Shown: piece after piece, positions 8,445-25,330 of the stretch | Layout of the letters: each line of letters opens with the position of its first letter | How positions within the stretch are numbered: the stretch's first letter is position 1 | Origin: Arthrobacter crystallopoietes | GTDB lineage: Bacteria > Actinomycetota > Actinomycetes > Actinomycetales > Micrococcaceae | Assembly: GCF_017603825.1 (NCBI RefSeq) | Contig: NZ_CP072014.1 | Location: forward strand, 1,860,001-1,924,000 | Length of the DNA: 64,000 bases | Reading direction: 5' to 3' | Notes under the pieces: model-generated | Database searches by the model: none | Told to the model about the DNA's origin: nothing | Seen by the model: only the letters and a program-made list of their open reading frames with translations | Translations under genes and position numbers: made by a program

Positions 8445-9758
8445 GTGACTACCGATAACAAGGCACCAGTGCCGGTATGGACACTCGCTACAGAGGCCGT
8501 GAACGTTCCGAGCGTGCTAGGCGACGAGGGCATGACACCTGCCCGACTCGCAGAACTGAGAACAGTTCTGGCAGCGCTTGCGGATTCCCCAATCGCGACG
8601 CTGGAAGCGCATCCGATGTCAGCCAAACGCGATCGGAATGGGGGGATTGCGCTTCATTCGGCCAGTCCGCTCGCTCAGCAGTTATCGCAGCTTGTGGCTG
8701 ATAGCGCGAAGTCTGCGCCCGCGAAGCTAAACGTCGTGGATGGCGGCGAGGTGCTTTATCGAATGGTGGTCCCGGCAAAGGTCGCCGCGCAGGTCGGTAA
8801 GGGACTCGTAAAGCCCATGGCTTCTAAGGCCGCTGCCGGAGGTGTGTACAGTGCGCTGCGCGACTCTACCGGCATCGTAGCCAAAGCAACGTTCGTGCCC
8901 GTTGCTGGCAAGGCCGCTGTTGCAGGTGCTGCAACCGGCTCGGCCGCCACGGCTGGCGTGGCCGTAGCCAGCGCCGGAGCGTTGACAGTGGCCGCGCCAC
9001 TCGTGCTGATGGCCGTCGCGGTCGGTGTCAGCGCCCACGCCGATCACCAACGCCAGCAAGCGATCGAGCGAATCACCGTCCTCCTGGAGCAATTACACGA
9101 AGACAACCTTGAGAAGGAACGCAATGAGCTAGACGGTTGTCGTGACGCGATCGACAAGGCGACATCGATTGTCTTGGACCAGGGCAGAATCGGACTATCG
9201 CTTGGCCTGGATTCCTCGTCGTACGCGATCAGCACTGCGTTCGAACGAGCCAAGCGTCGGCTCATGAAATGGCAAAACTCCCTAGATGCGCTGCCTGATG
9301 GCCCGGTTGAAGTCGGTGCACTGGCCAAATCATTCCCCGGTATCAACGAGGAAGGTGGCGCATTCCGTGCTCACTTGGAGCTTGCACGGCTCGCCATTGC
9401 TCTCAAGCGTCGAGTACTGGTGCTTCAAGCAGTTGAACACGCGCAGCTGGAGGGAACCGACAATCCGTTCAAGAGCTTCATCGGAATATTGCGCGACGAC
9501 GAACGTCGCGTCGACGAGTTGGAAGCAGGCATCAACTCAGTCCTCCTTCGACTGTCCACTCTTGAGTTGAAGCGCCATGGCGGTTTCCGGATCCCTGCAT
9601 TCACGCCAGGCGAGGTGGACGACCTACTCGACGCCGCTTATCGCCTTCGTGCGATAGGAGACGGCCTCAATGTGCGAATCCACCAAGCCGATGTCGCGAT
9701 TGAGATCGAACGAAGCAGCGACGGATCGCTCGTTGTGTTCCCTGCAGTCGCTGTCTAA
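8445..9758 (+). CDS. Unrecognised protein with Ala/Gly hydrophobic segment and helical C-terminus (paralogue A)
   Basis: The product is 437 aa. GTG 8445 was chosen because a GGGGAGGGG ribosome site lies about 8 nt upstream; a longer in-frame start at 8382 overlaps it. The N-terminal ~140 residues are mixed. Residues ~152-198 form an Ala/Gly/Val-rich hydrophobic stretch long enough to enter a membrane. From ~203 the protein is strongly helical and charged, starting with QQAIERI. The same layout and motif (QQAMDEI) occur in the protein at 27796-29052. No domain of known function was recognised. It is convergent with a RecB-like nuclease/helicase. A membrane-active, defence-type role is only a guess. 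Confidence 0.7.
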   Translation: MTTDNKAPVPVWTLATEAVNVPSVLGDEGMTPARLAELRTVLAALADSPIATLEAHPMSAKRDRNGGIALHSASPLAQQLSQLVADSAKSAPAKLNVVDGGEVLYRMVVPAKVAAQVGKGLVKPMASKAAAGGVYSALRDSTGIVAKATFVPVAGKAAVAGAATGSAATAGVAVASAGALTVAAPLVLMAVAVGVSAHADHQRQQAIERITVLLEQLHEDNLEKERNELDGCRDAIDKATSIVLDQGRIGLSLGLDSSSYAISTAFERAKRRLMKWQNSLDALPDGPVEVGALAKSFPGINEEGGAFRAHLELARLAIALKRRVLVLQAVEHAQLEGTDNPFKSFIGILRDDERRVDELEAGINSVLLRLSTLELKRHGGFRIPAFTPGEVDDLLDAAYRLRAIGDGLNVRIHQADVAIEIERSSDGSLVVFPAVAV

Positions 9759-9870: not shown

Positions 9871-12800
9871 TTAGTGACCTTCGGACAACCCGATGAATGC
9901 ACCAAGCTCCGCTAGAGCATGTGGTTGTTTGGGCAGATAGTGCGTCAAATGGGGCGAGCGTATAAGCACAGTGCGCCATTTTGCACGGGACACGGCCACG
10001 TTAATTCGATTCCGGTTGAGCAGGAACTCCATTCCTCGCGCTGCAGTCCGTGGCTCAGAACAAGCCATTGAAACAACGACGACGGGGGCCTCCTGCCCTT
10101 GGAATTTATCGACGGTGCCGACTCGCGCCGCTTCGAGACCGGCGTTGTCGAGCACACGCCGGAGCAGCTCCACCTGCGCGTTATAAGCAGCGACCACTAG
10201 GACGTCCGATGCCGCTAAAGGCCTTGGAACAACTCCTTCCTCGTCGACCCATGCCAGTCCGACATGCCGTCGGACCTGACGGACCACTTCATCTGCCTCC
10301 TCTGACGACGAGGTAGTCCTGTTCTCATGGTCAACGAATAAGGTCTCTACGCCGGCGGGCTCTCGCTCCATGTTTCGTTGGGAAGCGGCATCGGCAGAGC
10401 TGAGCCTTCCCCCATACGATAGACGGGACACGAAGTTACATAGCTCGGGGTGCATACGCCATGACTGGTCGAGGAAGTAGCCGAATTCGGACGGGAGCAC
10501 GGGCTTCTCCTGAGTGAGCCAGCCGAGTGCAGATCGGTTTACCGGTGCCGGGTGCTTACCTTGAGTGACCTGTGGCAGCTGATTCGGATCCCCTAGCAGG
10601 AGGAGCCGGCGGGAGTTGTGCGCAGCAGCCATAGTGTAAGCGAGCGAGTACTGACCGGCTTCGTCCACGACCATAAGGTCGAATTCGACATCGAGAGCCG
10701 GGTCGGTGAAGGTCCAAGCCGTACCGCCGACTACTACGCCTGAGGCCTTCTTAGCGAAGTCACGAAATGAATTGCCCTTAGCGAGCGTGGTCCAGAGCCG
10801 CACCCCATCGCCTTCGGGGACTTTACCCACGCAGTCGTTACTGAGACCTGCCTCCACTACACTGTCGAGCAAGTTTTCGACCACCGCGTGTGACTGAGCG
10901 ACAACGCCGATACGCCAGCCCTGTTCGACAAGGGCTTTGATGACCCGGGCGCCTACATACGTCTTTCCAGTTCCTGGAGGGCCCTGAACCGCTACGTAAG
11001 AGTGGTCAATCCTTTTAAGGGCCCTAACGGCTGCGGAGACGTAGTCGTGGCCGGCTACCCCAGCCAACGCATTGGCAAACAGATTGTTGGGTGATCGCCG
11101 TCGCAGTAGTTCAAACACGCAGTGTCTCGGCAGCTCGGGGTAGGTTTCGAGTAAACGCCGGGCCAAACCATGGATTGCGTCCTTGAGCTTGTCCGCAGGC
11201 ACCGGCATACGGGGAGCCAACGCCATAGGAAACTGCTCATAGCCCTCTTTGTCGACTTCATCGAAGATGATCGTCGACTGCCCGTTTTCACCAAGATCGA
11301 CGGAAATGATCTCGGTATTCCTGAAATGACCTCTCAGGTTGCGCATTTGTGACTCGTCCGCGGACAGCTTCGCAGGCCACGGATCTTCGAATATCCGAAC
11401 GTACCGCGCATCTTTCTTTAGGCTCGTCGGGATGAACCGGGATCCGTCCGCCAACCTGCCGGAGGCACGAATCCGTCGGCGCGGATATAAGCGGGCAGAC
11501 TTCCTCGCCCAATCGGCTTCGACAGTGCATTCCTCGATGAGGAAGACGTCGCGGTGGTCTTGCCAGTCCTCGACATCATCGTTGAGCCGGTCGAAGTGTT
11601 CTCGGAATGCGGTGTTGTTCTCGCGACGGTGATAAGCCAAGGCGGCCTCGACCAAGGTCAGCACGATATCTTCACCCGACCATTCGGATTCATCGGGCAG
11701 GGCGGCGACGAGATCGCCCATGGCGACCTCAAGCTCGGAAGGCTCAGTCAGGGGACGCGGATCGCTCCCTTCCTCGGCGGCGCCACTGACGTCTGGGTGC
11801 CGAAGGCTTTGTAGCCAATCACGCAATCTTAACGTTGAGAGGCAGTCATAGTGGTTATAGTCTTCGATCGAGCGCCAAATGCGGTCTGCAGCTTGCTGAT
11901 TCTTCGAGATGATGGCATCGCAGAACTCTTCGTATGCGACGACGGATGCGCCGGCGTCCTTGACATCACCAGTTCGAAGTTCATCGCCCATGTAGAGCGG
12001 CTCCAACTTCTTGATGGAGTAGGAGGTAGCTGCGATGCGCAAGCTGCGCCGAACGACCGCGTATAGGTCCACCAGGACGTTGTTACGGAGCCAGTCGTCG
12101 ATGGCATGTTCGCCGCCAGGATAAGTGTGCGACAGTCGTTTCAACGCTGTACGCTCGTAGGCCGCGTAATGGTAGATATGCATGTCAGGATGCTGCGCGC
12201 GCCGCTTCTGAACGTAGTCCACGAAGTCTAGGAATGCTTGCCTTTCCTGCTTGCGATCGTGCGCAACGAACTTTACAAAGACAGGCTCCAGCCCATCAAC
12301 TGGTGCCTCGATGACACCGAATAAATACTCGATGCCCCAGTCACCGGTTGCCGTGTCCTGCCACAATGGATCGCCCTCGAAATCGAAGAAGATGTCTCCT
12401 TCGGAGGGCCGGGGAATGGAGTGAAGGTTGTGTCCGGGCAAGACTTTGTACTTAGGGCATTCTTCGCTATCTGCTCCGGCCTGCATGACGGCTTGGTCAA
12501 CGAGCCTCGCAAAATATGCGTCGCCTTGTGCAGGGTCTGCGAGTGCTAGGTCTTTGACCGTGCTTATTCCTTGCGCCATCAACTCCTGACGGCGCGAGGT
12601 ACGCATTCCAGCTATGCAGAACAAATCGTCGTTAGCTTCGATGGCTTCGCTGCAATAGTCGCAAGTGCCGCAAACCGAAAAGTTTTCTCCAAACCATTCA
12701 ACCGGGAGTCCTGCACTTCTATGGCCAGACGCCATTTTCAGCAGGCGGCCGAACTGCTCCCGGTAGACGGGAAGGAGGTCTACAACGGCATGGTTGGATT

Positions 12801-13383
12801 CTTCCAACGTGCCGAGCACCAGAGTGACCTCTGGCGCGACTTGGAAACCCAACTTGAGAAGCTGATCGGCGTAGCTGGCGAGTTGCAAGAGTGCAGTGGT
12901 TTTTGGGTGCCGCGCAAGCTTCGTGTCATAGACTGCGTATGCGCCATTCGGCTGCTTGACTAGGAAGTCTGCCTTTCCGTGAAAAACGCCATCGAAGAAT
13001 GAGGCCTGAAAGACGACGTCAGCTCCGGCTCGAAGGGCGTCAACGGTTTCGTCGTGCTTGCGGATGTAAGCCTCTCGTACACCTTGAGAACGCTCGGCTG
13101 CTGTCACCTCTTCTACGATGTAGACTCCAGTGCCCTTCGCGGGGTTCCAACGCCCAAACTGGTTCACGTACCGGACAAGTACCTTCTTCTCGTGGGTGTC
13201 GCCCAGCCTGCTCGTCCGGTCCAACATAGCGTCGATAGCGAAATCGGGCTTTGGCGACCATTTAAGGGCGATGTCCAACCGCCGCAACGTGGCGAACTGA
13301 CAGGTGCTGAAGAGCACTAAATCGCTTGCAGAAAATACGACGTCTAGGCCGTTTGATGCGTCAGTAGATGGCAAAGTGAACAA
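9871..13383 (-). CDS. TM0106-family RecB-like nuclease / SF1 helicase
   Basis: The product is about 1170 aa. Near residues 135-160 a RecB/Cas4-like PD-(D/E)xK core is visible (KADF, then YDTK), followed by a Cys cluster (CGTCDYC) that may bind a metal. A middle RNase H-like stretch begins at FFDFEGD. The C-terminal half is a Dna2/Upf1-type SF1 helicase: Walker A GPPGTGKT near residue 798, VDEAGQ near 903, GDPNQLPQ, and a final RNRINVAVSRAK motif. The first in-frame start (TTG at 13395) overlaps the TTGGGGGA ribosome site, so TTG 13383 is the likelier start. The family is common in genome-defence islands and may repair or degrade DNA. Confidence 0.88.
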   Translation of the reverse strand: MFTLPSTDASNGLDVVFSASDLVLFSTCQFATLRRLDIALKWSPKPDFAIDAMLDRTSRLGDTHEKKVLVRYVNQFGRWNPAKGTGVYIVEEVTAAERSQGVREAYIRKHDETVDALRAGADVVFQASFFDGVFHGKADFLVKQPNGAYAVYDTKLARHPKTTALLQLASYADQLLKLGFQVAPEVTLVLGTLEESNHAVVDLLPVYREQFGRLLKMASGHRSAGLPVEWFGENFSVCGTCDYCSEAIEANDDLFCIAGMRTSRRQELMAQGISTVKDLALADPAQGDAYFARLVDQAVMQAGADSEECPKYKVLPGHNLHSIPRPSEGDIFFDFEGDPLWQDTATGDWGIEYLFGVIEAPVDGLEPVFVKFVAHDRKQERQAFLDFVDYVQKRRAQHPDMHIYHYAAYERTALKRLSHTYPGGEHAIDDWLRNNVLVDLYAVVRRSLRIAATSYSIKKLEPLYMGDELRTGDVKDAGASVVAYEEFCDAIISKNQQAADRIWRSIEDYNHYDCLSTLRLRDWLQSLRHPDVSGAAEEGSDPRPLTEPSELEVAMGDLVAALPDESEWSGEDIVLTLVEAALAYHRRENNTAFREHFDRLNDDVEDWQDHRDVFLIEECTVEADWARKSARLYPRRRIRASGRLADGSRFIPTSLKKDARYVRIFEDPWPAKLSADESQMRNLRGHFRNTEIISVDLGENGQSTIIFDEVDKEGYEQFPMALAPRMPVPADKLKDAIHGLARRLLETYPELPRHCVFELLRRRSPNNLFANALAGVAGHDYVSAAVRALKRIDHSYVAVQGPPGTGKTYVGARVIKALVEQGWRIGVVAQSHAVVENLLDSVVEAGLSNDCVGKVPEGDGVRLWTTLAKGNSFRDFAKKASGVVVGGTAWTFTDPALDVEFDLMVVDEAGQYSLAYTMAAAHNSRRLLLLGDPNQLPQVTQGKHPAPVNRSALGWLTQEKPVLPSEFGYFLDQSWRMHPELCNFVSRLSYGGRLSSADAASQRNMEREPAGVETLFVDHENRTTSSSEEADEVVRQVRRHVGLAWVDEEGVVPRPLAASDVLVVAAYNAQVELLRRVLDNAGLEAARVGTVDKFQGQEAPVVVVSMACSEPRTAARGMEFLLNRNRINVAVSRAKWRTVLIRSPHLTHYLPKQPHALAELGAFIGLSEGH

Positions 13384-13567
13384 AATTTCCCCCAATATTT
13401 GAACAAACCAAGTTTAGTGCAGGCACGGTACTAGTGGCAGCTGGGGCTCATATGCGTCATTGTCGGTAGAGCCAAACGCAGTCGAGCGGAGCCGAGCAGT
13501 CTCAATGAAGCCTTCGCACTGATTGTGCGTGATCCTGCAGGTTGAGTTCAGCGAAGAAGTCTCCCGT

Positions 13568-13957
13568 TCACCAGTCGCGGAAGCCATCGTGGCCAGCTCT
13601 GCTTACCGAGTCCACGCGCCATTCATAACCGCATTCTTCGTTCTGGCAGGCCCAGTCGGGCTCGTCTGGCCCAATGACACACCCGGCCATGACAGCTTTA
13701 GGCGCAGGTTTGTCCGGCTGAGGAACCCACATGCCGAAACGCACCGGCCAGGCCTCATGACCGCATCTGGGACACATGGTCGTTCCGTCTTTGGCCACCT
13801 TCGGTTTTTTCTTCTCGACAGCTGCCCAGCGGCCAAAGGCGCGGAGGACTTCCTCTTTCGAGTAGCCGAAGAGACCCGCCGCGGTTTCCACAGGGACTCC
13901 GCGCCGGCGGAGCTCAGCCAAGGCGTTCCACTCGGGGGTGTTCCTCAAATCGCGCAT
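13568..13957 (-). CDS. Small zinc-ribbon protein
   Basis: The product is 129 aa. ATG 13957 lies inside the 3' end of the upstream gene (13-nt overlap) and has AAGGAA about 10 nt before it, so translation is probably coupled. The N-terminal half is helical and HTH-like (WNALAELRRRG... FGYSKEEVLRAF). The C-terminal half holds CPRC and, 41 residues on, CQNEEC, a zinc-ribbon-like pairing. The Trp-rich tail resembles zinc-ribbon nucleic-acid-binding modules. It is the last gene of the array that begins with ARPP-1 at 19755. Function unknown. Confidence 0.7.
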   Translation of the reverse strand: MRDLRNTPEWNALAELRRRGVPVETAAGLFGYSKEEVLRAFGRWAAVEKKKPKVAKDGTTMCPRCGHEAWPVRFGMWVPQPDKPAPKAVMAGCVIGPDEPDWACQNEECGYEWRVDSVSRAGHDGFRDW

Positions 13958-15054
13958 GCCGGAATTTCCTTTTCGTGCTGGTCAACAACGTGCTGCTGGT
14001 CTTCGGCAGCACGGACCGCTGCGGACCAGCCGCCGAAGAAGTTTCGAACGGACGCTTCGGCGGGCCGCTTCACGCCTGCTGCCTTTTCGCTGGAGGCCCA
14101 TGGACCGTAGCGTTCGACGCTTGGGTGCAGGTCGAGAAGTCTCATCTCTTGGACGAAGGAGTCAATCGCATCCTGGTACTCGGCTTCGGAGAATTTGACG
14201 AGACCCGGCGGGCGTCCAATATTGGCGGTGGCTAGGCCCATCGATTCCAGTGCGGAATTCCAGTACTTGTAGCGGCCCATGAGTGTCTGGCGCGTAGGTG
14301 GCCAAGGCGTGGAACCTTGCCTGGATTCCCAGCCGAGCGCGGGTACCAGTTCATCACGGAGCTCTTCATAACGCGCGCCGGTAATCGTGGTTTCGGGGTG
14401 CTGGGCGACATGCCTATGAGCAGCCCCGATGATGCCCAGAATGGTGGCCACGTCGTCGTCGCTAGCAGTTCCGCCCCTGAGGATCCGTGCGAGTTCTTCC
14501 ATCAGCTCCAGGTCCACGTGTACTGCGGCGTACTCGGGATCCGGCGCCAGCCCCAGCTCGGCGCCAACCAGATAGTAGACGCCAGCTTTGATGACTGCGT
14601 CCGAAAAAACGTTCTGCGCTTGATGATTGAACACGATGCCCGCTGTGCGGAGGACTGAATCAGCAAGTTCCTCATCCATGGCAGGGAACACGAATTTCAG
14701 CCTGGCAAGGGTCTGCGGCTTGGTGCATCCTTGCGCCGCGATGCGCCTGGCGGACTCGCCGTATTTACCCATGAATGCTTCTGCAGCGGCCCGTGCCAGT
14801 GCTTGCCGCGCGTCCAGGCGCTTCTGCCGCGACTCCTGAGCAAGGCTGCCGCCGATCTTAGTGACGATCTGGCGGACTCGTTCGCGCGTGACTCCATAAT
14901 CGGAGCCGATGGCTTCCAGCGTTTCGCCGTCGATGTAGCGCCGCACCCAGATGGCATTGCGCTGGGCTTGCGTGAGCTGCTGTCCGGAAACGGCAGCTTC
15001 GACCGGGCTGATCCCGGAGACACCGGCGGGAGCCGGCGGAAGGGTTAGAGTCAT
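13945..15054 (-). CDS. Sigma-70 region-4-like HTH protein
   Basis: The product is 369 aa, starting at ATG 15054 with GGAG upstream. Residues ~30-70 carry a sigma region 4 type HTH (DGETLEAIGSDYGVTRERVRQI), as in the C-terminal part of housekeeping sigma factors. No region 2 is present, so it should not act as an ordinary sigma factor. The remaining ~300 residues are mostly helical, with a Trp-containing module (RYKYWNSALESMG) resembling homing-endonuclease-associated DNA-binding repeats. It overlaps the zinc-ribbon gene downstream and follows an RNase HI-like gene, which suggests a nucleic-acid-binding partner in the same array. Confidence 0.75.
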   Translation of the reverse strand: MTLTLPPAPAGVSGISPVEAAVSGQQLTQAQRNAIWVRRYIDGETLEAIGSDYGVTRERVRQIVTKIGGSLAQESRQKRLDARQALARAAAEAFMGKYGESARRIAAQGCTKPQTLARLKFVFPAMDEELADSVLRTAGIVFNHQAQNVFSDAVIKAGVYYLVGAELGLAPDPEYAAVHVDLELMEELARILRGGTASDDDVATILGIIGAAHRHVAQHPETTITGARYEELRDELVPALGWESRQGSTPWPPTRQTLMGRYKYWNSALESMGLATANIGRPPGLVKFSEAEYQDAIDSFVQEMRLLDLHPSVERYGPWASSEKAAGVKRPAEASVRNFFGGWSAAVRAAEDQQHVVDQHEKEIPACAI

Positions 15055-15184
15055 GCAATCTCCTCGGGTAGGAAACAGGGTCAGGAACGTTGCCAGGGGA
15101 AGTCCTGTTCGTTCTGGTTAAGGTTTATCAGCCGCCACTGACAGGATTTGAGCTCGGGCAACTGCTGCGGGCCGGAACAATGAT

Positions 15185-16111
15185 CTAGGCGGCCAGCGCC
15201 ACGTGCGAACTGAGAAGCTGACACTCTGCTTCCTCACGGACTGCAGCAGCGAGGCGGTCCGTTTCTTCCGGAGACAATCCGGCTTCCCGGCATCGCCGGG
15301 CGAGCACGGCCATTCGGTCAGCGAAGGTGTTCAACGGATCGCCTGAATGCCCTTTGACCCACCGGAAATGCACGTCCGCGTGCTTGGTCAACTCGCGGAT
15401 GCGCAGGACTTCGCTCGCGCAGCGGCCGTTTGACGACGGCGGCTCGAAACCTTGCTGCAGCAGCATCCGCAGTGCCAACTGACTATCCGTGCTGACGGTG
15501 ACCGCGCTTCGGCCGTCGAGGGCACCCGTATAAGCGCTCCGGGCAGCAAGGAGAGCGAAACGAAGGGCACGCAGCTCGCCTTCGAGGACATTGCCGACGT
15601 CCACGGCTTTGTATCCGAGGACAGGCCCAACGCTTCCCGCGAACGTCAGGACCCAGCCGTGGCCTACCCAGCGGGAGCCCCTGCCCCGCGATGCATCCGT
15701 GGCAATTTCGACGGCGGTGAACAAGCTATCGACGCAGGAACGCACAGCGTCGTCCATAGCCGTGATGGCAGCAACCGGCGGATAGAAGGCTGACACGGCC
15801 AGCCCCAGCTGGCGCAGCGACTCGGCCGTGTCCTCGCTTGTGCAGAAGATATCTACTTGATTGGAACCCCTCAGCAGGCGTACGGCGTCGTGCATTTCAT
15901 TGAGCAGTTTTCCTCGGTTAGCACCACAGGCTGTCGGCTCCATAGCTCCGGAGCGAATGCCAAGGACACGTTCGCCTTGTGTCCGTGCCGCGGCCCAGAT
16001 GTAATGACCGTGCTGCTGCCTAACATGAACGGAGATCCCGCTGCGGACGGATACTTCGTCCGCAGCACTAATGAACCGACGGACTGGTGGAACGGGTACT
16101 GGAAACTGCAT
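15185..16111 (-). CDS. RNase HI-like protein
   Basis: The product is 308 aa; ATG 16111 follows GGGAGG. The C-terminal ~170 residues form an RNase H fold with all four acidic catalytic positions: Asp139 (ATDAS), Glu179 (LEGEL), Asp209 (STDSQ) and Asp265 (FADR), plus His255 in VKGHSGD. It should therefore be able to cleave RNA in RNA-DNA hybrids. The N-terminal ~130 residues have no recognised domain and may carry specificity. The gene lies 48 bp behind a small gene in the ADP-ribose-related array, an unusual setting for RNase HI. Confidence 0.82.
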   Translation of the reverse strand: MQFPVPVPPVRRFISAADEVSVRSGISVHVRQQHGHYIWAAARTQGERVLGIRSGAMEPTACGANRGKLLNEMHDAVRLLRGSNQVDIFCTSEDTAESLRQLGLAVSAFYPPVAAITAMDDAVRSCVDSLFTAVEIATDASRGRGSRWVGHGWVLTFAGSVGPVLGYKAVDVGNVLEGELRALRFALLAARSAYTGALDGRSAVTVSTDSQLALRMLLQQGFEPPSSNGRCASEVLRIRELTKHADVHFRWVKGHSGDPLNTFADRMAVLARRCREAGLSPEETDRLAAAVREEAECQLLSSHVALAA

Positions 16112-16159
16112 GGCGACCTCCCTGGCCTGGTAGTTGGTTTGGCGGTGTTGTTCCCTTTC

Positions 16160-16423
16160 TTAGATTCGTTGGGATATCTGCGGTCGGCTGAGTTTGCTGA
16201 GCTCCCTCAAGATCTTGGCGCCTTCGACGTCGTAGACCTCTGTCAGATTGGCGATGGGACGGCCGGTCGTCCGCGTCAGGAAGGCCAGCGCGGCCTCTTT
16301 GGAACGAAACCCAGCACGCCGCAAGCCGTGAATAATTTCCAGCTTCTTGGCGTCGCCCAGCAGTAGCCTCACCGGTTTGCGCTGGTCATTGCCCGTGTCG
16401 AAAATTGCATAGCCGTCGCTCAT
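16160..16423 (-). CDS. Small protein of unknown function
   Basis: The product is 87 aa. ATG 16423 is the second of two adjacent ATGs; its spacing from TTGGGGGA matches that of the ARPP-1 gene at 19755, so it is preferred. The frame stays open further upstream, to 16630, and overlaps the preceding gene, so a longer form cannot be excluded. The middle is rich in basic helical sequence (RRAGFRSKEAALAFL). No family was recognised. It sits in the array between the 245-aa zinc-finger protein and the RNase HI-like gene. Confidence 0.6.
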   Translation of the reverse strand: MSDGYAIFDTGNDQRKPVRLLLGDAKKLEIIHGLRRAGFRSKEAALAFLTRTTGRPIANLTEVYDVEGAKILRELSKLSRPQISQRI

Positions 16424-16580
16424 CATTCCCCCAAGAATGTTCGTCGTTCTGACGTGGCAGCTGATGCCTGCCCCCGTGATTTCACAGTAGGGCTTGCCAC
16501 TGACATTTTTACGGGCAGCCATCGCGAGTACGACGGCGATGGAGACTTTCCGCCTTCGCGGAAGTCGGTGAGACGACGGC

Positions 16581-17318
16581 TTACAGCTCTGGCGGAGCCG
16601 TTGCAACATGCCAGCTAAGTTGGCGGACATCCGGGCAGGACCGGCCGTGTCTGAGGCCAGCCAGCACTTCCCCGGCAGTGAGCTGCGGTCCGGTGCGCAT
16701 ACTGCTCCAGTTGGGGCAGGACGTATCCGGTGCGTTCCAGCCGGCCGCCTTCAACACGTCACCGTGCAGCGGCCAGGTGTCTCCGGGTAGATAGTCATTC
16801 GACACGATCTCGCACCAGTAGCCCTCTTCGTCCAAGGCGACCTGAGCGTAGGGTGCACAGGCGTCTTCCGTTGACTCTCCGTACTCGACCAGGACGAAGT
16901 CACCATCCTTGAGCCACTCGATGTCCTCGGCCAGCGCCAGCGTGGCGCCCTGCCAGTAAAGTTCCATCTCATCCGGATGCGGTTCTGTCTCCTTCGCAGC
17001 TGGAGCCGGCGAGGCGAGGGGCCACATACATGTTCCGCCGAAACGGCCTTCGCCCGCCTGATAGGCAGCCCCGTCAACGTATGCGATGCCGCGCTCGGCA
17101 ACCTCCCGGCACAGGCTACCGTCCTCGTGTTCTGCGCCTCGGCCGGAGGCGCTGATACGGTCCGCTTGGTCTTCGAAGCCGTTGAACATCCGGACCTTGC
17201 GGCCCATGACATGGGTGGCACGGTCCGTGCATGCCGGGCACAAGTAATTCCGCGGGATCAAATGCTCCGGCCTGTCGCCACCGCAATGCGGGCAGGCCCG
17301 CCCCAGCCCGCTGTTCAC
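16581..17318 (-). CDS. Protein with N-terminal zinc-finger motif, unknown function
   Basis: The product is 245 aa. Its GTG start (17318) overlaps the TGA stop of the upstream ADP-ribosylglycohydrolase gene in a GTGA arrangement, so the two are translationally coupled. An N-terminal CPHC/CPAC pair (residues 9-30) forms a likely zinc knuckle. The rest is acidic and Trp-rich (DGDFVLVEYGE, GYWCEIVSNDYLPG) with no recognised enzyme motif. Tight coupling to a de-ADP-ribosylating enzyme suggests it works on the same substrate or complex; this is inference from gene order. Confidence 0.75.
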   Translation of the reverse strand: MNSGLGRACPHCGGDRPEHLIPRNYLCPACTDRATHVMGRKVRMFNGFEDQADRISASGRGAEHEDGSLCREVAERGIAYVDGAAYQAGEGRFGGTCMWPLASPAPAAKETEPHPDEMELYWQGATLALAEDIEWLKDGDFVLVEYGESTEDACAPYAQVALDEEGYWCEIVSNDYLPGDTWPLHGDVLKAAGWNAPDTSCPNWSSMRTGPQLTAGEVLAGLRHGRSCPDVRQLSWHVATAPPEL

Positions 17319-18805
17319 TGGGCCTCCTGCGAAAGACGCCGCAGCAGTCGGCGGAATCCGGGGTTCGGGTTGGCGTGGGGGAGGACCTCACGGACCTTCT
17401 CCAGTGCTTGCTCCGGAGTCATGCCCGTAACCAGGGCACCGTAGAGAGCAGCGACGGTTGGCGTACGGCTTTCCATCCGAACGCAGTGCAGCAGCACACG
17501 CTTACCTTCGGAGCGGAAGAGAGCGACGGCGGCAGCGGCCTCCCGGAGCGCGAATTCCAGATGGGCGTTAGCGTCAGCCGCCGCTTCATCCAGTACCCAC
17601 AAGGAGGCATGGTCGGACGGATCCACGTGGGTTTCGGCGGTGCCAACACGGGAGAGGGAGACGACGGCGTCGTAGTCGGTCCGGGACAGGGCCGGGGCTC
17701 CGCCCAGGAGCACGCCGTCATCCAGCGGGTGGGCAACGACGGCGGTCTTGGCTGCACTGATGAACGCCGAGTTGTCGAAGACCGGCAGGTCCGGCCAGCG
17801 GCCTTCCGTCCGACCCTCGCCGCGGGCCAGCTGCAGGGCCAGCCGCTGCAGATCCCGGGCCTCGTACCCGGGCCAACCGTGCAACTTCCGCCGCCACTCG
17901 AACGGCACTGCAGTAAAGCCATGCGCGGCGCCGAGCAGTCCACCGGCAATTGCGGCGACCGTGTCGGTATCGTTCCCGCCGCGGACCGCAGCCTCAAGCG
18001 CGGCACGAAGATGCGCCGGGCCGGAAGCTGCGTCCGTCGTCGTCGTAATAGCGGACCAAGCAGCCTGGAAGGCTTCGACTACCCAGCCGTTGCGGGTGAA
18101 GTCGCGCGGCCGGCTGCGTTCAGCGGTTTCGATCCGCTCCAGCCACAAGGCTGCCCGTTCACCGGGCAGGAGCTCCAGCCCCTTCCGGATGTCCAGATCG
18201 CCGGTGAGGACAGCATGCCGGATGGCCAGGCACCAGAGCGCGCAGGCCTCACCCGCCTCCGGATCGAAGTGGGTCAGTGCGCTGACCTCCATGGCCGCGT
18301 CGAACAGCTCCCGCTCGGGCCGGTCGAGGAAGGCCAGCGCCAGGGGAGCAGTGCGCATCAGCGAGCCGTTGCCGCCGGAACGGCCGGAGGAGCGGTGCAC
18401 CTGCTCGGACGCCGCGTAGGCATCTGCTGCGGTGATCGCGGTGCGCCCCTCGGCGGCGGCCGCACTCCGTGCCCGGCCCAGCACGGAGCTGGTCTGGACG
18501 CCCACATCCTTGGCCTCACGTGCCCACTCGGACCAAGCCTGCGCCATCGCGCTCTTGGCTTGCTCGTCCAGTCCGCGGCGCTCGCCGGCGGCTTCGAGCA
18601 GGGCGTCGGCGATAACGATCGCCATGGACGTGTCGTCCGTCCACTCGGAGGGGGCGAACCCGAACGGGCCGCCGCCCTTCATGCTGACGTCGGCGGTGTC
18701 CGGCAGGGCGGGTCCGAATTCGTAGCCGGCGCCCAGGGCGTCGCCGGCGGCGAGGGTGACCAGGACGCCGGCGGCGCGGTCATTCTGCAAAGAGTTCAGG
18801 TTCAT
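17315..18805 (-). CDS. ADP-ribosylglycohydrolase fused to a dual-specificity-type phosphatase
   Basis: The product is 496 aa; ATG 18805 follows GGAGG. Residues 1-330 are a DraG/ARH-type ADP-ribosylglycohydrolase with intact motifs: GDALG (21-25), metal-binding TDDT (56-59), GGNGSLMR (144-151) and GGNDTDT (276-282). Residues ~340-490 form a Cys-based phosphatase with HC-x5-R active site (Cys441, Arg447). The enzyme should remove ADP-ribose from a target and hydrolyse a phosphate, perhaps from a phosphorylated ADP-ribose product or the same target. This fusion with an ARPP-1 neighbour is a known genomic association; the substrate is not known. Confidence 0.92.
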   Translation of the reverse strand: MNLNSLQNDRAAGVLVTLAAGDALGAGYEFGPALPDTADVSMKGGGPFGFAPSEWTDDTSMAIVIADALLEAAGERRGLDEQAKSAMAQAWSEWAREAKDVGVQTSSVLGRARSAAAAEGRTAITAADAYAASEQVHRSSGRSGGNGSLMRTAPLALAFLDRPERELFDAAMEVSALTHFDPEAGEACALWCLAIRHAVLTGDLDIRKGLELLPGERAALWLERIETAERSRPRDFTRNGWVVEAFQAAWSAITTTTDAASGPAHLRAALEAAVRGGNDTDTVAAIAGGLLGAAHGFTAVPFEWRRKLHGWPGYEARDLQRLALQLARGEGRTEGRWPDLPVFDNSAFISAAKTAVVAHPLDDGVLLGGAPALSRTDYDAVVSLSRVGTAETHVDPSDHASLWVLDEAAADANAHLEFALREAAAAVALFRSEGKRVLLHCVRMESRTPTVAALYGALVTGMTPEQALEKVREVLPHANPNPGFRRLLRRLSQEAQ

Positions 18806-18867
18806 GGGGCCTCCAAGGGCGCGAAGTGATGAGGTCAAGTGTTGCGGATGAGGTGGAGCAGCGGCGG

Positions 18868-19755
18868 TTAGATCGCCATCATTGGGTGGTGCGTGTCCCA
18901 GCTGCTCAGGTGCGCCAACGCTGGCAGCCGCTTCGGCGGTGCCCAAGCGATGCCGCTGGCGGTGACCCGGCCGTCACCGGTGGTGATCGCCGAGCCATCC
19001 AGGCGGGCTCCCATCTCGGTCAGCCGTACGGCGAGATCGCGGGCGGATTGTGCCGGCGTCTTGATGCTGGGTACGTTGCCGGCGAACACCTGGATGTCCA
19101 GCCACGCCGCTTCCACCAGCGGCCGGTAGTGCTGCACGAACAGACGGTGGCTGCCGAAAAGCTCCAGCATCAGGGCGTTGCCACCAAAACCAACGACGAC
19201 GCCGCGTTGGCCTTCGATCGGCTGCGGCAGCTTGGCAAGGTCAAGACCTGCGTGACGGGTGCCGGCGTCCAGGTGGTCAACCAGCGAGCCGGAACCGGAG
19301 ACCGTGTGCAGGCCCTGATAACGGGCGACCCGCTCCCACACCCTGCCCTGCGTTTCCGGCCCACGGGTTTCGCGGTTCAGCTCCGCCCGGACGTTCAGCG
19401 GCGCCCGCCGTGCGGAGCGGCCGTGAACGGAAGCTCCGCCCCAGCGGCCCTGCTCCACGCAGTACGTTTCGACGTCGCGGCTTTCGCCCGGTGCCAGGAT
19501 CACGTCCCGGGCGCATACCCGGTGCTGATGGCCGCCCTCCAGCAGTTCGCCTTCGAGCAGCAGAAAGGGCTTGGTGTCCTTGTTGCTAACGGTCAGTTTG
19601 GAAACCTGCGGACCGGAGGCCAACTCCGTGACCTGGAGGTTCGCGGCGGCACCGCTCGTTAGGCCGACGGCGCCCCGGCCTTCGGTCCAGACCGGGAAGA
19701 GAGTGAGCGGGCCGAGCTTGGTGCCGGCTCCAATGTGTAAGGTGCTGATCTTCAT
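18868..19755 (-). CDS. ARPP-1 domain protein
   Basis: The product is 295 aa; ATG 19755 follows TTGGGGGAATC. The sequence matches the ARPP-1 family (named for association with ADP-ribosylglycohydrolases and Cys-phosphatases): a beta-rich start, then the diagnostic LLLEGELLEGG stretch near residues 65-75 and a CVEQGRW motif near 100. No catalytic residues are established for the family. It is the first gene of the seven-gene minus-strand array, 62 bp before the glycohydrolase-phosphatase, and divergent from the NrtR-like repressor, so it is probably controlled from the inverted repeat at 19831-19868. Confidence 0.85.
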   Translation of the reverse strand: MKISTLHIGAGTKLGPLTLFPVWTEGRGAVGLTSGAAANLQVTELASGPQVSKLTVSNKDTKPFLLLEGELLEGGHQHRVCARDVILAPGESRDVETYCVEQGRWGGASVHGRSARRAPLNVRAELNRETRGPETQGRVWERVARYQGLHTVSGSGSLVDHLDAGTRHAGLDLAKLPQPIEGQRGVVVGFGGNALMLELFGSHRLFVQHYRPLVEAAWLDIQVFAGNVPSIKTPAQSARDLAVRLTEMGARLDGSAITTGDGRVTASGIAWAPPKRLPALAHLSSWDTHHPMMAI

Positions 19756-19830
19756 GATTCCCCCAAATCTGCCGCCGGTGCCCCTTCAACCAAAGAGGTC
19801 GGTCCGGCGGTTAATCTTTTACGCATCATC

Positions 19831-19868
19831 GCGCTAATTCAAAGATAGAGCAGTTTGGTAATTAGCGC
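19831..19868. promoter_or_regulatory. Inverted-repeat operator between ARPP-1 and NrtR-like genes
   Basis: GCGCTAATT (19831-19839) is the exact reverse complement of AATTAGCGC (19860-19868), with a 20-bp spacer. It lies in the short divergent promoter region. Half-sites about 29 bp centre to centre fall on roughly one DNA face, as expected for a dimeric repressor. NrtR proteins usually bind palindromes in such divergent regions; binding here is inferred. Confidence 0.55.
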
Positions 19869-19881
19869 AATCCTGCGTTTA

Positions 19882-20556
19882 ATGGGTTCTGTGGCTAAAA
19901 CTAACGACGTCGGCAAGAGCCTGAGCGACTATCCCTGCCCCTCAGTAGCAGTAGACACCGCGGTACTGACAGTTTCCGGTGGCGAGCTCGGTGTCTTGGT
20001 CGTCGCGCACGACAAGGTGCCTGGCCATGGGTGGGCCCTTCCCGGCACCTTTTTGCACGAGGGGGAGCGGTTGGCAGATGCAGTGCTTCGCTCCCTGCGT
20101 GAGAAGGCGCATGTGTCCGGGCGACAACCACAACAACTGCATGTATTCGACGATCCGAAGCGGGATCCCCGCGGTTGGATCCTTTCTGTCGCTCACGTCG
20201 ACGTCGTTCCAATACAAGACCTGGAGCCAGCCATCAAGGCCACTGGTGTTAAGCTCTTGCCCCTGTGCGGCGACATCCCTAACCTGCCCTACGACCACCC
20301 GGCCATCGTCGCCAAAGCAATCGAACGGACTCGAACCGCCTACTCCGCCGAACCAGATCCCGGGGGCTTGCTCACCGGCGCATTTACTCTGCGCGACCTG
20401 CGCAGATTACATGAGACGGTCATGGGAGAGGAGCTCATGCGCGACACCTTTCGCCGCTTCATGGAACCCAAGCTCGTCCCCACCGGGGAAATGACCGACG
20501 GTGGCCGGGGCCGACCATCGCGATTGTTCCGTCAGCCAAACTGCGATAATCGCTAG
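19882..20556 (+). CDS. nrtR: NrtR-like Nudix-wHTH transcriptional regulator
   Basis: The product is 224 aa from ATG 19882. No Shine-Dalgarno is visible, so the mRNA may be leaderless; GTG 19891 is an alternative. The N-terminal Nudix domain has an aberrant Nudix box (residues 55-78), with RSLREKA in place of the catalytic REUxEExGU, so it should bind but not hydrolyse its ligand, as in NrtR repressors that sense ADP-ribose. The C-terminal ~80 residues (GAFTLRDLRRLHETVMG) form the winged HTH. It is divergent from an ADP-ribose-related array and probably represses it when NAD-derived metabolites are low. Confidence 0.87.
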   Translation: MGSVAKTNDVGKSLSDYPCPSVAVDTAVLTVSGGELGVLVVAHDKVPGHGWALPGTFLHEGERLADAVLRSLREKAHVSGRQPQQLHVFDDPKRDPRGWILSVAHVDVVPIQDLEPAIKATGVKLLPLCGDIPNLPYDHPAIVAKAIERTRTAYSAEPDPGGLLTGAFTLRDLRRLHETVMGEELMRDTFRRFMEPKLVPTGEMTDGGRGRPSRLFRQPNCDNR

Positions 20557-22320: not shown

Positions 22321-23742
22321 CTAGACCTTCGTCAGAGTGCGACTATCAGTCGGAGCGAGAAGTATATCTTTATCGCTGGTTCGCTTGTATCTTGAATAGG
22401 GGAATCCACTAGGTTCCGTCCAGGATATGCCAGCATTGTGATTTAGGAGAGCTTTTCCGATAGCTTCTCCCAACTTCAGGGGTACAGCATTTCCTAGCTG
22501 CTTGTACTGCGACACTAAGTTGCCTTGGAGTATCCAGTCATCGGGAAAATCTTGGAGCCGCTTGTACTCCTCAACACTTAGAGGCCGGTTTTCCACCGGA
22601 TGCGCTAGGTCTGTGGCAGGCATTGTCGGATGCGTCACAAGAGTAGGGGACGGCTTGTCCCAAGCCAGGCGTCTGAAGAAACCGGTCTTCCCTCCTCCAC
22701 TGAAATAGCTGTTGCCCATCGCTTCCTTCTGCAGCTCTTCTGGCAGATGTTTCCAATATTGTCCTGGCCCGAGTAGTTTGTAATAGCGGAGGCGGTTTTC
22801 GGGAAACTCCAAATGATTCAGATCATTCTCATCTAAGCCTTCAACGGATTCTCTGAAAGTTTTCCAACGCGGTAAGCCAAATGAAGTATCGTTGGAATTC
22901 GTGGGGCTCAGAAAAGGCACGCGTTCCCCATCCCGAGTGCAAATCAATATGACTCTTTCGCGAACTTGCGCGCTACCATAATTAGCTGCATTGTATAGGT
23001 TGAAAGAAACGGAATAGCCAGCCTCGCGAAGCTTTTGAACCACATAAGCAAGGGCGCCTCCTGGCTTCTCCTCTTCAGATAGTGGTGGGAATTCAGGGCC
23101 ACGCTGATTGTGAGGCCTATGTTTTAGCGCGGCAGACAGTAGGCCTCGAACGTTCTCTAGCACCGCATATTTAGGGTTGAGTTCGGAAATCAAGTCAATA
23201 AAGTGTAGAAAGACGTTACCCCTGATATCTTCGAATCCACGGCGCGCACCTGCAGTGCTAAATGCTTGACAGGGCGGGCCGCCGGCGACGACATCAATCT
23301 CCTCGTTGGCTCCTAGGCCTGCAATGGCTCGTATGTCGGCGGCCGAGTACTGCCAGATATCACCGAGAAGTGGTAAATCAGGTCTATTGTACTGAATCGT
23401 TTGACGGCAAGTTCTGTCGAATTCACACGCAAGAACCGTTTCGAGTCCAGCTTTCTCTAATCCGAGATCTAGTCCCATAGCTCCAGAAAAGAAACTGAGT
23501 ACTTTCATTTTTTCCTTATCCAATTGTTCTTCCGGATGCGATTTAGGCATAACAAGGGTTCCGCGCTCTAGGGCCGAACGCCGCACGTCGTTGGCGGCTA
23601 TTCCCCAGGTGCGGCCAATGCGTCGGCCTCCAAGTTCACCGGTTCTAAGGAGGGTGCGTATTCTTTGCGGGCTAACTTTGAGCACATCAGCTGCTTCCGC
23701 AACTGAGATCAAGTCGTCGGGACTTCTAGAAGTTTCGGTCAC
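22321..23742 (-). CDS. HTH-fused DNA cytosine-5 methyltransferase
   Basis: The product is 473 aa from GTG 23742; an upstream in-frame ATG (23802) adds an unlikely Arg/Cys-rich leader. Residues ~8-55 form an excisionase-type HTH (ISVAEAADVLKVSPQRIRTLL). The methyltransferase begins at ~80 with motif I (FFSGAMGLDLGLEKAG), motif IV GGPPCQAFS with catalytic Cys158, ENVRG at 196-200, QVRERV, and motif X QLGNAVP. The family methylates C5 of cytosine in a specific site. It lies 130 bp downstream of a TdeIII-type endonuclease and should protect the host; the HTH may let it regulate the locus. Base composition is lower in GC than neighbours, which points to transfer. Confidence 0.93.
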   Translation of the reverse strand: MTETSRSPDDLISVAEAADVLKVSPQRIRTLLRTGELGGRRIGRTWGIAANDVRRSALERGTLVMPKSHPEEQLDKEKMKVLSFFSGAMGLDLGLEKAGLETVLACEFDRTCRQTIQYNRPDLPLLGDIWQYSAADIRAIAGLGANEEIDVVAGGPPCQAFSTAGARRGFEDIRGNVFLHFIDLISELNPKYAVLENVRGLLSAALKHRPHNQRGPEFPPLSEEEKPGGALAYVVQKLREAGYSVSFNLYNAANYGSAQVRERVILICTRDGERVPFLSPTNSNDTSFGLPRWKTFRESVEGLDENDLNHLEFPENRLRYYKLLGPGQYWKHLPEELQKEAMGNSYFSGGGKTGFFRRLAWDKPSPTLVTHPTMPATDLAHPVENRPLSVEEYKRLQDFPDDWILQGNLVSQYKQLGNAVPLKLGEAIGKALLNHNAGISWTEPSGFPYSRYKRTSDKDILLAPTDSRTLTKV

Positions 23743-23872
23743 GAAACCTACGCTATACCGACACCAGGGCGTGCCGCGGCACCTGGCCGTGCGTGTCGTC
23801 ATCGCGGATGTAAATCACAGGCGATGCAACAGCTGCCGTTCTCTGGCACGCCGATGAATACTCGCCGTTGGG

Positions 23873-24637
23873 CTACTTCGTGAGAGCGTACTTTTCTATG
23901 ATGAGTTTGGTCTGTGCACCGACCTGTTCAGCTACGCTCAGCACCTTTTCGTACGTACCTGGGCCACCGAGCGTATCCCAGTAGTCCCTTCCAATGAGAA
24001 CCGGCTCGTCGTTCAAGAAATCGAATACGCGTAGGGGAGGGGTCCAAGAGTAGGTGGATCGGCTTTCGCCGTAGGGATTGTAGTACAAGCCAAAGTACAC
24101 ATTTCTAGTGGAGTCTTCGCCGCCCAATTTGAGGAGGTCACGCTTTGCTTCTGCAGTCTGATCAATATTGGGTTTGACCGTCTTGATGCTCATGTAGTTC
24201 TCGATGCCATCCTTGACCCAGTAGAGGTCGGATCGTACCCGTCGTGTATCCGGGGATCCGTACGCGCCGGCTTGAAGTACCTTGCCCAGGTCATTCTGCC
24301 AATTTGGTAGGTACAGGTTGCCTGCGACTCTTGAAGATCTAACAATATCTTCGATCGCTTCCCATTGAACCGTAGTTAGAGTTACATGGGTGTCGTGTTG
24401 CGTCTCAGCGACCGTGGCTCCCGAACCTAGGGCCACCAGCCGCGATATTTTTTCGATGACCGACTGTCCGAAGGACGTAGAGAAGGAGCGCTCGAATCGG
24501 CTCCAAAAGACGACTTCATTCGTGAGAAGAGCGGTGTGAAAAGGGCGGTGCGTATCTTCAGCACTGAGTCGTGAAACGGTGCGTAATACACAGTCCTCCA
24601 GTAGTGCGTGTATTTGTGTCATAACGTTCGTGCTCAT
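23873..24637 (-). CDS. TdeIII-family type II restriction endonuclease
   Basis: The product is 254 aa; ATG 24637 follows GGGGGGA. The sequence matches the TdeIII restriction family; a likely nuclease core is Asp137 (RSDLYWVKDG) and Lys152 (SIKTVKPN). TdeIII itself belongs to enzymes cutting GGNCC; the same site here is inferred, not shown. It is paired with the m5C methyltransferase downstream on the same strand. It is transcribed first, so delayed or controlled expression would be needed for safe establishment; an inverted repeat lies just upstream at 24656-24678. Confidence 0.85.
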   Translation of the reverse strand: MSTNVMTQIHALLEDCVLRTVSRLSAEDTHRPFHTALLTNEVVFWSRFERSFSTSFGQSVIEKISRLVALGSGATVAETQHDTHVTLTTVQWEAIEDIVRSSRVAGNLYLPNWQNDLGKVLQAGAYGSPDTRRVRSDLYWVKDGIENYMSIKTVKPNIDQTAEAKRDLLKLGGEDSTRNVYFGLYYNPYGESRSTYSWTPPLRVFDFLNDEPVLIGRDYWDTLGGPGTYEKVLSVAEQVGAQTKLIIEKYALTK

Positions 24638-24655
24638 TGTGTCCCCCCTGTCTAG

Positions 24656-24678
24656 ATCGGTAGATTAGAACTACCGAT
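24656..24678. promoter_or_regulatory. Inverted repeat upstream of the restriction gene
   Basis: ATCGGTAG (24656-24663) and CTACCGAT (24671-24678) are perfect inverted repeats around a 7-nt loop, starting 19 bp before the restriction gene start codon. It could be an operator, possibly for the HTH of the methyltransferase or the small HTH protein at 21807-22046. No second copy was found upstream of the methyltransferase. Confidence 0.45.
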
Positions 24679-25032
24679 TACGCCTCAGATGATCTTGCCG
24701 GAAAGTTGCGCAACATCCAATTTGGTCGCCTGAGGGACATCTTTGGGTGCGGGGTGTTGTCCATAATACGGTCAGGGCTGGCAGCGCACTGTGTTCGTAA
24801 TCAAAGCGTTGGTTGGTTGGTTGTTCCACTCACCCGCCCTGTGGTCGCGCTTCTGGAGCCGGTGCATAATGGCATCGTACCGAGCCGAGGCCAAGAGCGG
24901 AGTACGTCCGGCATCATATCCAATGAGAAACGCGATAGAAGCAGACAAACTACCCGACTACGAGGAAGGCGCCTTGAACGGCGCGGGCAACGTCGATGCC
25001 TGTTAGATGCGTCAATCGGAGGAGACGTTTCT

Positions 25033-25205
25033 AGGGTGCTGCAGTGACAGAAGAGCTGGTTAGACGACAGGGCAATGCTGCCAGTGGTTTGCACGCTGGA
25101 TCCGCCATAGCTAACAGCTGTCCCAAATCGCAGGCTTTCGATCAGCGAGGCGAACGAGGCGGCACTGGTGCGGCAGATCTCGTCAGCCGGCAGAATCCCA
25201 TTCCG
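25033..25205 (-). pseudogene. PucR regulator remnant with internal deletion
   Basis: Positions 25129-25205 align with 37791-37867 (the N-terminal part of the intact PucR gene; the first 35 bases are identical), and 25033-25090 align with 36911-36968 (the C-terminal HTH part). The two pieces keep their order, but about 0.78 kb between them is missing. The rest of the gene is gone on both sides. It lies between the restriction gene and the AspBHI-like gene. Confidence 0.85.
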
Positions 25206-25330
25206 ATTTGGAGTGGGCCTTTTGAATCCCATGCTTAGCGTCAGGCTACCGAGTATGTGCGACTCAAGACGAAAAGAGATATTCACCAACTGGTCGTGCG
25301 CCCTGCAGATGCTGCATACAGACCACGCGG

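Follow-up and report, generated by a model that had tools for sequence, protein, structure and literature searches.

We analyzed a gene array at positions 13568-20556 of a 64-kb stretch of the Arthrobacter crystallopoietes genome (hereafter the window), which covers positions 1860001-1924000 of one 4.38-Mb contig. Seven minus-strand genes lie divergent from a gene for an NrtR-like repressor. This arrangement had been proposed in a first-pass annotation; all eight open reading frames (ORFs) were found in the order it gave, and the Pfam assignments agree with it. The bounds it set enclose these genes and leave out a nuclease-helicase gene just beyond them. The features are as follows, in window coordinates.

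19882..20556, plus strand: NrtR-like repressor, degenerate Nudix domain and NrtR winged helix (Pfam)
19861..19882, no strand: predicted NrtR operator 1, a 22-bp palindrome over the presumed -35 element of the ARPP-1 promoter (score 22.9)
19817..19838, no strand: predicted NrtR operator 2, over the presumed transcription start and 44 bp from operator 1 (score 20.9)
18868..19755, minus strand: ARPP-1 (PF20208; DUF6569 in other annotations; Pfam 1.6e-55, alignment)
17315..18805, minus strand: ADP-ribosylglycohydrolase (ARG) fused to a CX5R phosphatase (Pfam, motifs)
16581..17318, minus strand: 245-residue protein with a zinc-ribbon-like N-terminus and a TY-Chap3 predicted peptide-binding chaperone domain (PF22552, 3.1e-15)
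16160..16426, minus strand: conserved protein of 87/88 residues (similarity)
15185..16111, minus strand: RNase H, with an N-terminal domain that lacks the conserved acids and a catalytic RNase HI domain (Pfam, alignment, models)
13945..15054, minus strand: sigma-region-4-like (sigma-4-like) protein with an HNH_repeat-like C-terminal part (Sigma70_r4, 4e-08)
13568..13957, minus strand: zinc-ribbon protein (alignment), fused to the sigma-4-like protein or a relative in other loci
9871..13395, minus strand: TM0106 RecB-like nuclease, RNase_H_2 and IGHMBP2/UPF1-type helicase (AAA_11/12) in one protein (domain scans; start codon uncertain)

The array is compact. Adjacent genes overlap by 4 bp at 17315-17318 and by 13 bp at 13945-13957, as had been noted, and the largest gap is 154 bp rather than the 157 bp given before. 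A terminator scan placed no minus-strand terminator-like site in the gaps of the array (six terminator-like sites in total against 4.5 expected).

The core resembles a published class of ADP-ribose conflict operons

The glycohydrolase part of the ARG-phosphatase matches ADP_ribosyl_GH (PF03747) at 1.5e-50, and the phosphatase part matches DSPc at 8.4e-08 (32.5 bits, just under the cut-off of 33.5). The TDDT, NDTDT and HCVRMESR (HCxxxxxR) motifs are intact in the alignment, and the gene starts at ATG 18805. The next gene was previously described as encoding a zinc-finger protein. A CxxC..CxxC motif is indeed present at its N-terminus, but its domain match identifies it as a TY-Chap3 protein. 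We found no ADP-ribosyltransferase or sirtuin among the window proteins scanned, a subset of the ORFs. ARPP-1 is patchily distributed, occurring in 35 of 395 sampled genomes of the family (Micrococcaceae) and in 4 of 193 genomes of the order sample.

The divergent gene encodes the Nudix and NrtR domains first ascribed to it (NrtR_WHD, PF21906, 1.5e-12; NUDIX, PF00293, 8.8e-08), although its start is probably ATG 19882, giving 224 residues, and not TTG 19855. In 32/32 aligned NrtR sequences, the Nudix box has S/C and K in place of two of its three glutamates, and the remaining position is E or D in most. Such a box is more in keeping with a sensor than with an enzyme. The protein scores 76.7 against the NCBIfam NrtR equivalog cut-off of 400. 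It resembles the NrtR repressors of nicotinamide adenine dinucleotide (NAD) metabolism in its degenerate Nudix domain, NrtR winged helix and palindromic sites, but its gene adjoins ARPP-1 instead of NAD synthesis genes.

Our literature search found one paper on this operon type (Iyer, Burroughs, Anantharaman and Aravind 2022; PMC9503650). Its main text predicts widespread ARG-centric conflict operons with Nudix-helix-turn-helix (HTH) or WYL repressors, ARG-phosphatase fusions, ARPP, TY-Chap1-3 chaperones and variable restriction endonuclease and helicase accessories, and suggests that such operons undo viral ADP-ribosylation. The window shares with these systems the Nudix-HTH repressor, here divergent and accompanied by palindromes, an ARG fused to a domain of the rhodanese/phosphatase superfamilies (here a phosphatase), the combination of ARPP with a TY-Chap3 protein, and variable nuclease/helicase accessories. 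The association of ARPP-1 with a glycohydrolase-phosphatase, which the first-pass annotation had called known, is thus this one, and the core formed by the NrtR-like protein, ARPP-1, the ARG-phosphatase and TY-Chap3 is not new. The terms 'RNase H', 'RNaseH', 'sigma', 'ribbon', 'NERD', 'UvrD', 'operator', 'SIR2-like' and 'EcsC' are absent from the main text of PMC9503650, and 'zinc' occurs once; the additional genes are possibly drawn in its figures or supplements.

Paired palindromes precede ARPP-1

Most NrtR/ARPP-1 intergenic regions contain two 22-bp palindromes of the form TTTAkCGCA-N4-TGCGCTAAA, 44-48 bp apart, and these shared sites bear out the proposed link between NrtR and the array. 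We trained an operator matrix on 55 sites in 29 loci; the window and loci L015 and L022 (L numbers denote loci and G numbers genomes) were excluded, and three candidates below 13 of 18 were dropped. With this matrix the two predicted operators of the window score 22.9 and 20.9, compared with a best score of 15.9 in 40 simulated 64-kb sequences. We considered additional operators inside the array and rejected them, as no other site in the window scores above 3.3. A whole-genome pattern search allowing up to two mismatches returned both window sites and one distant site with two mismatches, and a reversed control pattern gave two matches. The ARPP-1 promoter would be TTGCGC - 17 bp - TATCTT at 19870-19842; this is our own reading of the sequence, its -35 match is poor, and a promoter scan omits it from its list.

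A second scan, with a matrix that included the window, covered 60 loci and 1.196 Mb (four loci repeat ARPP-1 genomes). Paired sites above 8 precede ARPP-1 in 31 of the 33 loci that have both NrtR and ARPP-1, a count that is partly circular because most were training loci. L015 and L022 are the exceptions, and the match in L014 is weak; L023 and L141, where NrtR was not found, fall outside the count. Three sites above 8 lie elsewhere in the 60 loci: L088 (14.0), L125 (10.8) and the Zafaria locus L018 (18.6). The Zafaria locus belongs to neither training set, and its NrtR gene lies between ARG and RNase H. Its third site (12265-12286) lies 7 bp from the NrtR start and 207 bp from RNase H, ahead of both, and its score of 18.6 compares with a best background of 14.0 across the 1.196 Mb. 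This predicted operator is suggestive of RNase H control, without proving it; its role may be confined to NrtR.

RNase H, sigma-4-like and zinc-ribbon genes are linked to ARPP-1

The remaining array genes encode proteins with predicted roles on nucleic acids, together with an 87/88-residue protein for which no family was found in our scans; it is 69% identical in G006 and G003 and 25-33% identical in three more loci. The RNase H matches Pfam RNase_H at 3.3e-09, and the catalytic acids that it was said to retain (D139, E179, D209 and D265) are invariant in 19/19 aligned sequences. It scores 26.1 against the NCBIfam ribonuclease HI equivalog cut-off of 160. Its N-terminal domain is probably RNase H-like, judging from how strands and helices follow one another in a model built from five sequences. 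Foldseek matched reverse transcriptases over 262-311 alignment columns with a root-mean-square deviation of about 15-18 Å, and the RNase H-like reading is weak because no per-domain ranges were given.

As the first-pass annotation stated, the sigma-4-like protein has region 4 without region 2, which was not found in Pfam and NCBIfam scans. Since it has region 4 only, it is not a sigma factor, and it should bind promoters rather than melt them. Over residues 42-80 it shares about 54% identity with a stretch that most sampled genomes encode, presumably in the principal sigma factors, and the profile matches solved SigA region-4 chains. We take the matched part to be the -35-recognition helix.

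We asked how often these genes accompany ARPP-1 among the 395 family genomes. RNase H relatives with E up to 1e-20 occur in 32 genomes, 15 of which have ARPP-1 (2.8 expected, P 1.5e-09). Among the 15 genomes with the closest relatives (E up to 6e-50), 13 have ARPP-1 compared with 1.33 expected (hypergeometric P 1.9e-13), and in all 13 RNase H lies on the same contig, 1.7-13.7 kb from ARPP-1. The sigma-4-like protein behaves similarly. At E up to 5.7e-97 (the next match being 2.2e-39), ARPP-1 is present in 13 of 16 genomes (P 9e-13), with the two genes 1.2-10.3 kb apart in linked genomes; relaxing the limit to 1e-30 gives 25 genomes, again with ARPP-1 in 13. In a 25-row RNase H tree, the linked label takes 3 changes, compared with 8.7 in shuffles, so linkage is clustered on the tree, with at least two changes forced. 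The tree omits the shortened copy of G294 and some other hits, and several branches are long. A pattern search across 84,980 species genomes kept 80 of 341 confirmed loci. Close copies of RNase H (E up to 1e-57) occur in five of these, in each case within 9 kb of ARPP-1; the other 75 are weak RNase H matches (E 2e-9 or worse). The presence of the RNase H, sigma-4-like and zinc-ribbon genes beside the core is not due to chance, and the linkage to ARPP-1 and ARG that was first proposed from the window recurs in relatives.

We also considered whether the RNase H linkage could be an accident of a widespread family. This was rejected, as ARPP-1 occurs in just 2 of 17 genomes that have distant relatives only (7.7e-49 to 8.3e-23): in G055 on another contig and in G451 about 175 kb away. 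G400 has a close copy and a distant second copy on another contig, and counting it brings the weak list to 3 of 18, compared with 1.6 expected. More distant relatives also occur on mobile elements. Five Arthrobacter-group plasmids encode RNase H relatives with 31-34% identity (VWA-like and MoxR genes adjoin the one viewed), and eleven Arthrobacter phage records contain an RNase that is 32-34% identical over half of its length. Plasmid and phage searches gave no match to the sigma-4-like protein.

Gene order varies among ARPP-1 loci

We compared neighborhoods from -4 to +13 kb around ARPP-1 in 35 loci: the window, 33 of the 34 other ARPP-1 loci of the family (the G334 fragment was left out) and G167 from another family. 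ARG is present in 32 (some copies split or partial), the sigma-4 family in 14 (the union of its two labels), and an RNase H gene on the same strand as ARPP-1, no more than 13 kb downstream, in 8. The proposed order is conserved almost whole in A. crystallopoietes BAB-32 (G006, L017/L146), where NrtR is divergent from ARPP-1, ARG-phosphatase, an EcsC-family gene, an 86-residue protein gene, RNase H, sigma-4 and ribbon, followed by two genes without assignment, a small protein gene and a NERD-helicase. This is the order of the window with EcsC in place of TY-Chap3 and more genes behind. Many other loci have parts only. The G009 array is without sigma-4, and in G003 genes for an 83-residue protein, RNase H and the ribbon lie 14 kb downstream, behind a second, partial ARG gene. 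In G318 (Edens01), ARG is followed by a sigma-4-relative::ribbon fusion, RNase H, AddB and AddA; in G304, by RNase H, sigma-4 and a sigma-4-relative::TY-Chap3 fusion, with a NERD-helicase further on. Sigma-4 directly follows ARG with gaps of at most 46 bp in L020, L125, L128, L139 and L144, and RNase H does so with 39-bp gaps in L137 and L140.

The nuclease-helicase gene begins 172 bp past the ribbon gene if TTG 13395 is its start. Its best PADLOC match is MkoA, over the helicase part only, and this part alone matches large neighbors in L239 and L242 at 26%. Near RNase H/sigma-4 modules in relatives we found NERD-helicases, AddB-AddA or TM0106 nuclease-helicases, and on a Pimelobacter plasmid a TM0106-annotated nuclease lies 26 bp after ARG. 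From its position, the nuclease-helicases near the module elsewhere and the Pimelobacter nuclease, we infer that the nuclease-helicase probably fills the effector slot of the array.

Other genes recur at these loci. An SIR2_2 protein is encoded at 14 of 35 loci. In eight, its gene directly follows the ARG-phosphatase gene (L123, 10539-12113; L124, L126, L127, L133-L135 and L142), whereas a coupled ADP-ribosyltransferase or sirtuin is not expected in ARG-centric conflict systems. The L123 protein has ThsA-like PADLOC matches, and a possible role is that of an NAD-consuming effector under the same operator. A superfamily 2 (SF2; ResIII/DEAD) helicase fused to a complete sigma-70 occurs at 8 of 35 loci and recurs near ARPP-1 and NERD-helicase genes. 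The fusion in L131 (8156-10705) has sigma regions 1.2, 2, 3 and 4, and its halves match the PADLOC PbeA and MzaA models; the one in L019 (1467-4076) has regions 1.2, 2 and 4. Those in L136 (12608-15148), L140 (4569-7136) and L244 (11553-14102) were recognized by similarity. In L019 (6002-7540) and L098 (8919-10370; genome G066, with no ARPP-1 match), a helical region like that of the sigma-4-like protein is joined to a TY-Chap3 domain, which links the chaperone to the sigma-4 family. Finally, L143 encodes a Pycsar-effector-type membrane protein (10199-10744; PycTM, 2.2e-12) near its ARG-phosphatase.

The surroundings of the array look like a defense island. G+C content is 0.51-0.64 for most 2-kb steps at 9-36 kb of the window, reaches 0.69 in the ARPP-1/ARG core and is mostly 0.63-0.72 around this stretch. 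To the right of the array (22321-26530) lies a restriction cluster consisting of a C5 methyltransferase with an excisionase-type HTH, a TdeIII-type endonuclease and an AspBHI/Mrr-type endonuclease. On the right flank, the gene used as a marker is present in 10/10 genomes of the genus, in several copies; the one chosen on the left flank matched 1 of 10 genomes, this genome itself. A 448-residue ORF at 8412-9758 is 88% identical to a G003 gene (L084, 2823-3965) that sits between the partial ARG gene and the 83-residue protein and RNase H genes; a Pfam scan gave no family above cut-off, and the ORF is possibly mobile. Another ORF (27805-29052, 415 residues) is 64% identical to a gene at the ARPP-1 locus L015 (12513-13817), which is in turn 58% identical to an L020 gene (1977-3221). 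A Pfam scan found no family for this group either.

Discussion

We read the window as a core with a semi-independent nucleic-acid module docked behind it. The array would be an ARG-centric ADP-ribose conflict operon under an ADP-ribose-sensing repressor of the NrtR type, with a module for nucleic acid attack attached to the core, and we give this reading a probability of roughly 0.5. It probably serves defense against viruses; such a setting, already proposed for the array, fits the prediction in the main text of PMC9503650 and the adjoining restriction enzymes.

In this model, NrtR would at rest occupy the two palindromes over the ARPP-1 promoter, whose positions are given by conservation. 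From what is known of NrtR biology, ADP-ribose released through the action of invader ADP-ribosyltransferases or by NAD breakdown would probably lift repression. The ARG-phosphatase and ARPP-1 would then strip and process ADP-ribose on host targets while TY-Chap3 holds modified proteins, both roles being proposed in PMC9503650. The sigma-4-like protein and the zinc ribbon would direct RNase H and the nuclease-helicase to invader DNA undergoing transcription, the kind of target that these two partners suggest. The target put forward in the first-pass annotation, ADP-ribosylated nucleic acid or RNA-DNA hybrids, is speculative and is not supported by these results.

A more specific version of the last step is speculative, and we consider it unlikely to hold in full. 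The sigma-4-like/ribbon pair would recognize -35-like invader promoters and recruit the two-domain RNase H and the nuclease-helicase to R-loop-forming DNA, gated by ADP-ribose through NrtR. Such a module could be a bacterial, sigma-based counterpart of TOTE systems, which are built on TATA-binding protein (TBP). As far as they are set out in part of PMC12458937, TOTE/TALON systems combine a TBP with effectors or a helicase/nuclease, often with RNase H domains, and the window likewise joins RNase H and a nuclease-helicase to a promoter-binding-like protein. This likeness is an analogy only, with sigma region 4 as the would-be counterpart of TBP; the TOTE components TBP, OB and TPR were not found among the array proteins scanned. 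Another comparison is with RTasNERD-Hel of PADLOC. The NERD-helicase of L016 matches this model at 1.2e-27 and its family is present at 21 of 35 ARPP-1 loci (in some beyond NrtR), but the window has a TM0106 RecB-UPF1-type helicase instead.

Several observations weigh against the docked-module reading. RNase H is an optional part, since just 8 of 35 ARPP-1 loci have it no more than 13 kb downstream. The RNase H threshold of 6e-50 was chosen after the list had been seen, and the E-values show no gap there (the next genome, G115, has a match of 7.7e-49 and 34% identity and is without ARPP-1). The co-occurrence statistics ignore shared descent. An operon of RNase H, sigma-4::ribbon, AddB and AddA is found in G377, G400, G349, G260 (with an incomplete ribbon part in the gene as called) and G342, and the matrix scan detected no operator in any of the five. 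In G377, G400, G349 and G260 the operon and ARPP-1 are on opposite sides of NrtR, with RNase H 9-11 kb from ARPP-1, and the operon therefore cannot share the ARPP-1 transcript; G342 has no ARPP-1 match, although a TY-Chap3 gene 59% identical to that of the window lies four genes after AddA. G101, G316 and G332 also have sigma-4 or RNase H without ARPP-1. The nuclease-helicase of the window was found at none of the other 34 ARPP-1 loci examined, and the Pimelobacter nuclease is only weakly similar to it (E 4e-04 over 62 residues). The structure model of the sigma-4-like protein is poor (predicted local distance difference test score 67), and Foldseek returned no solved fold for it at E below 0.001.

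The operator-less operons, one of them in a genome without ARPP-1, do not support the initial view of the whole array as one dedicated system. They favor an alternative in which two independent defense or repair modules cluster in defense islands and swap neighbors, sharing at most read-through transcription. The core loci with SIR2_2 as the next gene in place of the module and the nearby restriction genes are in keeping with this alternative, which we regard as a tentative but serious possibility. It does not account well for the eight loci with RNase H downstream on the ARPP-1 strand, including the 39-bp gaps after ARG in L137 and L140, for the co-occurrence in 13/15 and 13/16 genomes, or for the predicted operator between NrtR and RNase H in Zafaria.

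A separate question is whether the sigma-4-like protein regulates transcription of the array, as an anti-sigma factor or activator, instead of targeting effectors. The similarity of residues 42-80 to presumed principal sigma factors and the region-4 matches to solved SigA would suit a regulator, but NrtR is already present as the predicted regulator of the operon, and the protein is fused to the zinc ribbon, has relatives fused to TY-Chap3 and co-occurs with nuclease-helicases. We consider a regulatory role unlikely. Least probable is a housekeeping ADP-ribose/NAD stress operon that repairs endogenous R-loops and ADP-ribosylated molecules following NAD or DNA damage, with RNase H and the nuclease-helicase as its repair enzymes. 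In its favor, RNase H, helicases and enzymes of the AddAB and RecB types are known to act in repair, and more distant RNase H relatives lie in loci without ARPP-1. The patchy distribution of ARPP-1, the swapping of accessories (including the SIR2_2 protein with ThsA-like matches) and the adjoining restriction genes are more typical of defense.

The docked-module reading makes a published prediction of ADP-ribose conflict concrete by adding a specific palindrome pair and a recurrent accessory set of RNase H, sigma-4-like protein, ribbon and nuclease-helicase. The core has been published; the accessory module and the palindromes are worth testing. The recurrence of this set suggests that transcribed nucleic acid is a further target of ADP-ribose conflict systems. 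Should the sigma-4-like protein indeed direct nucleases to promoters, bacteria would possess an immune module guided by transcription.

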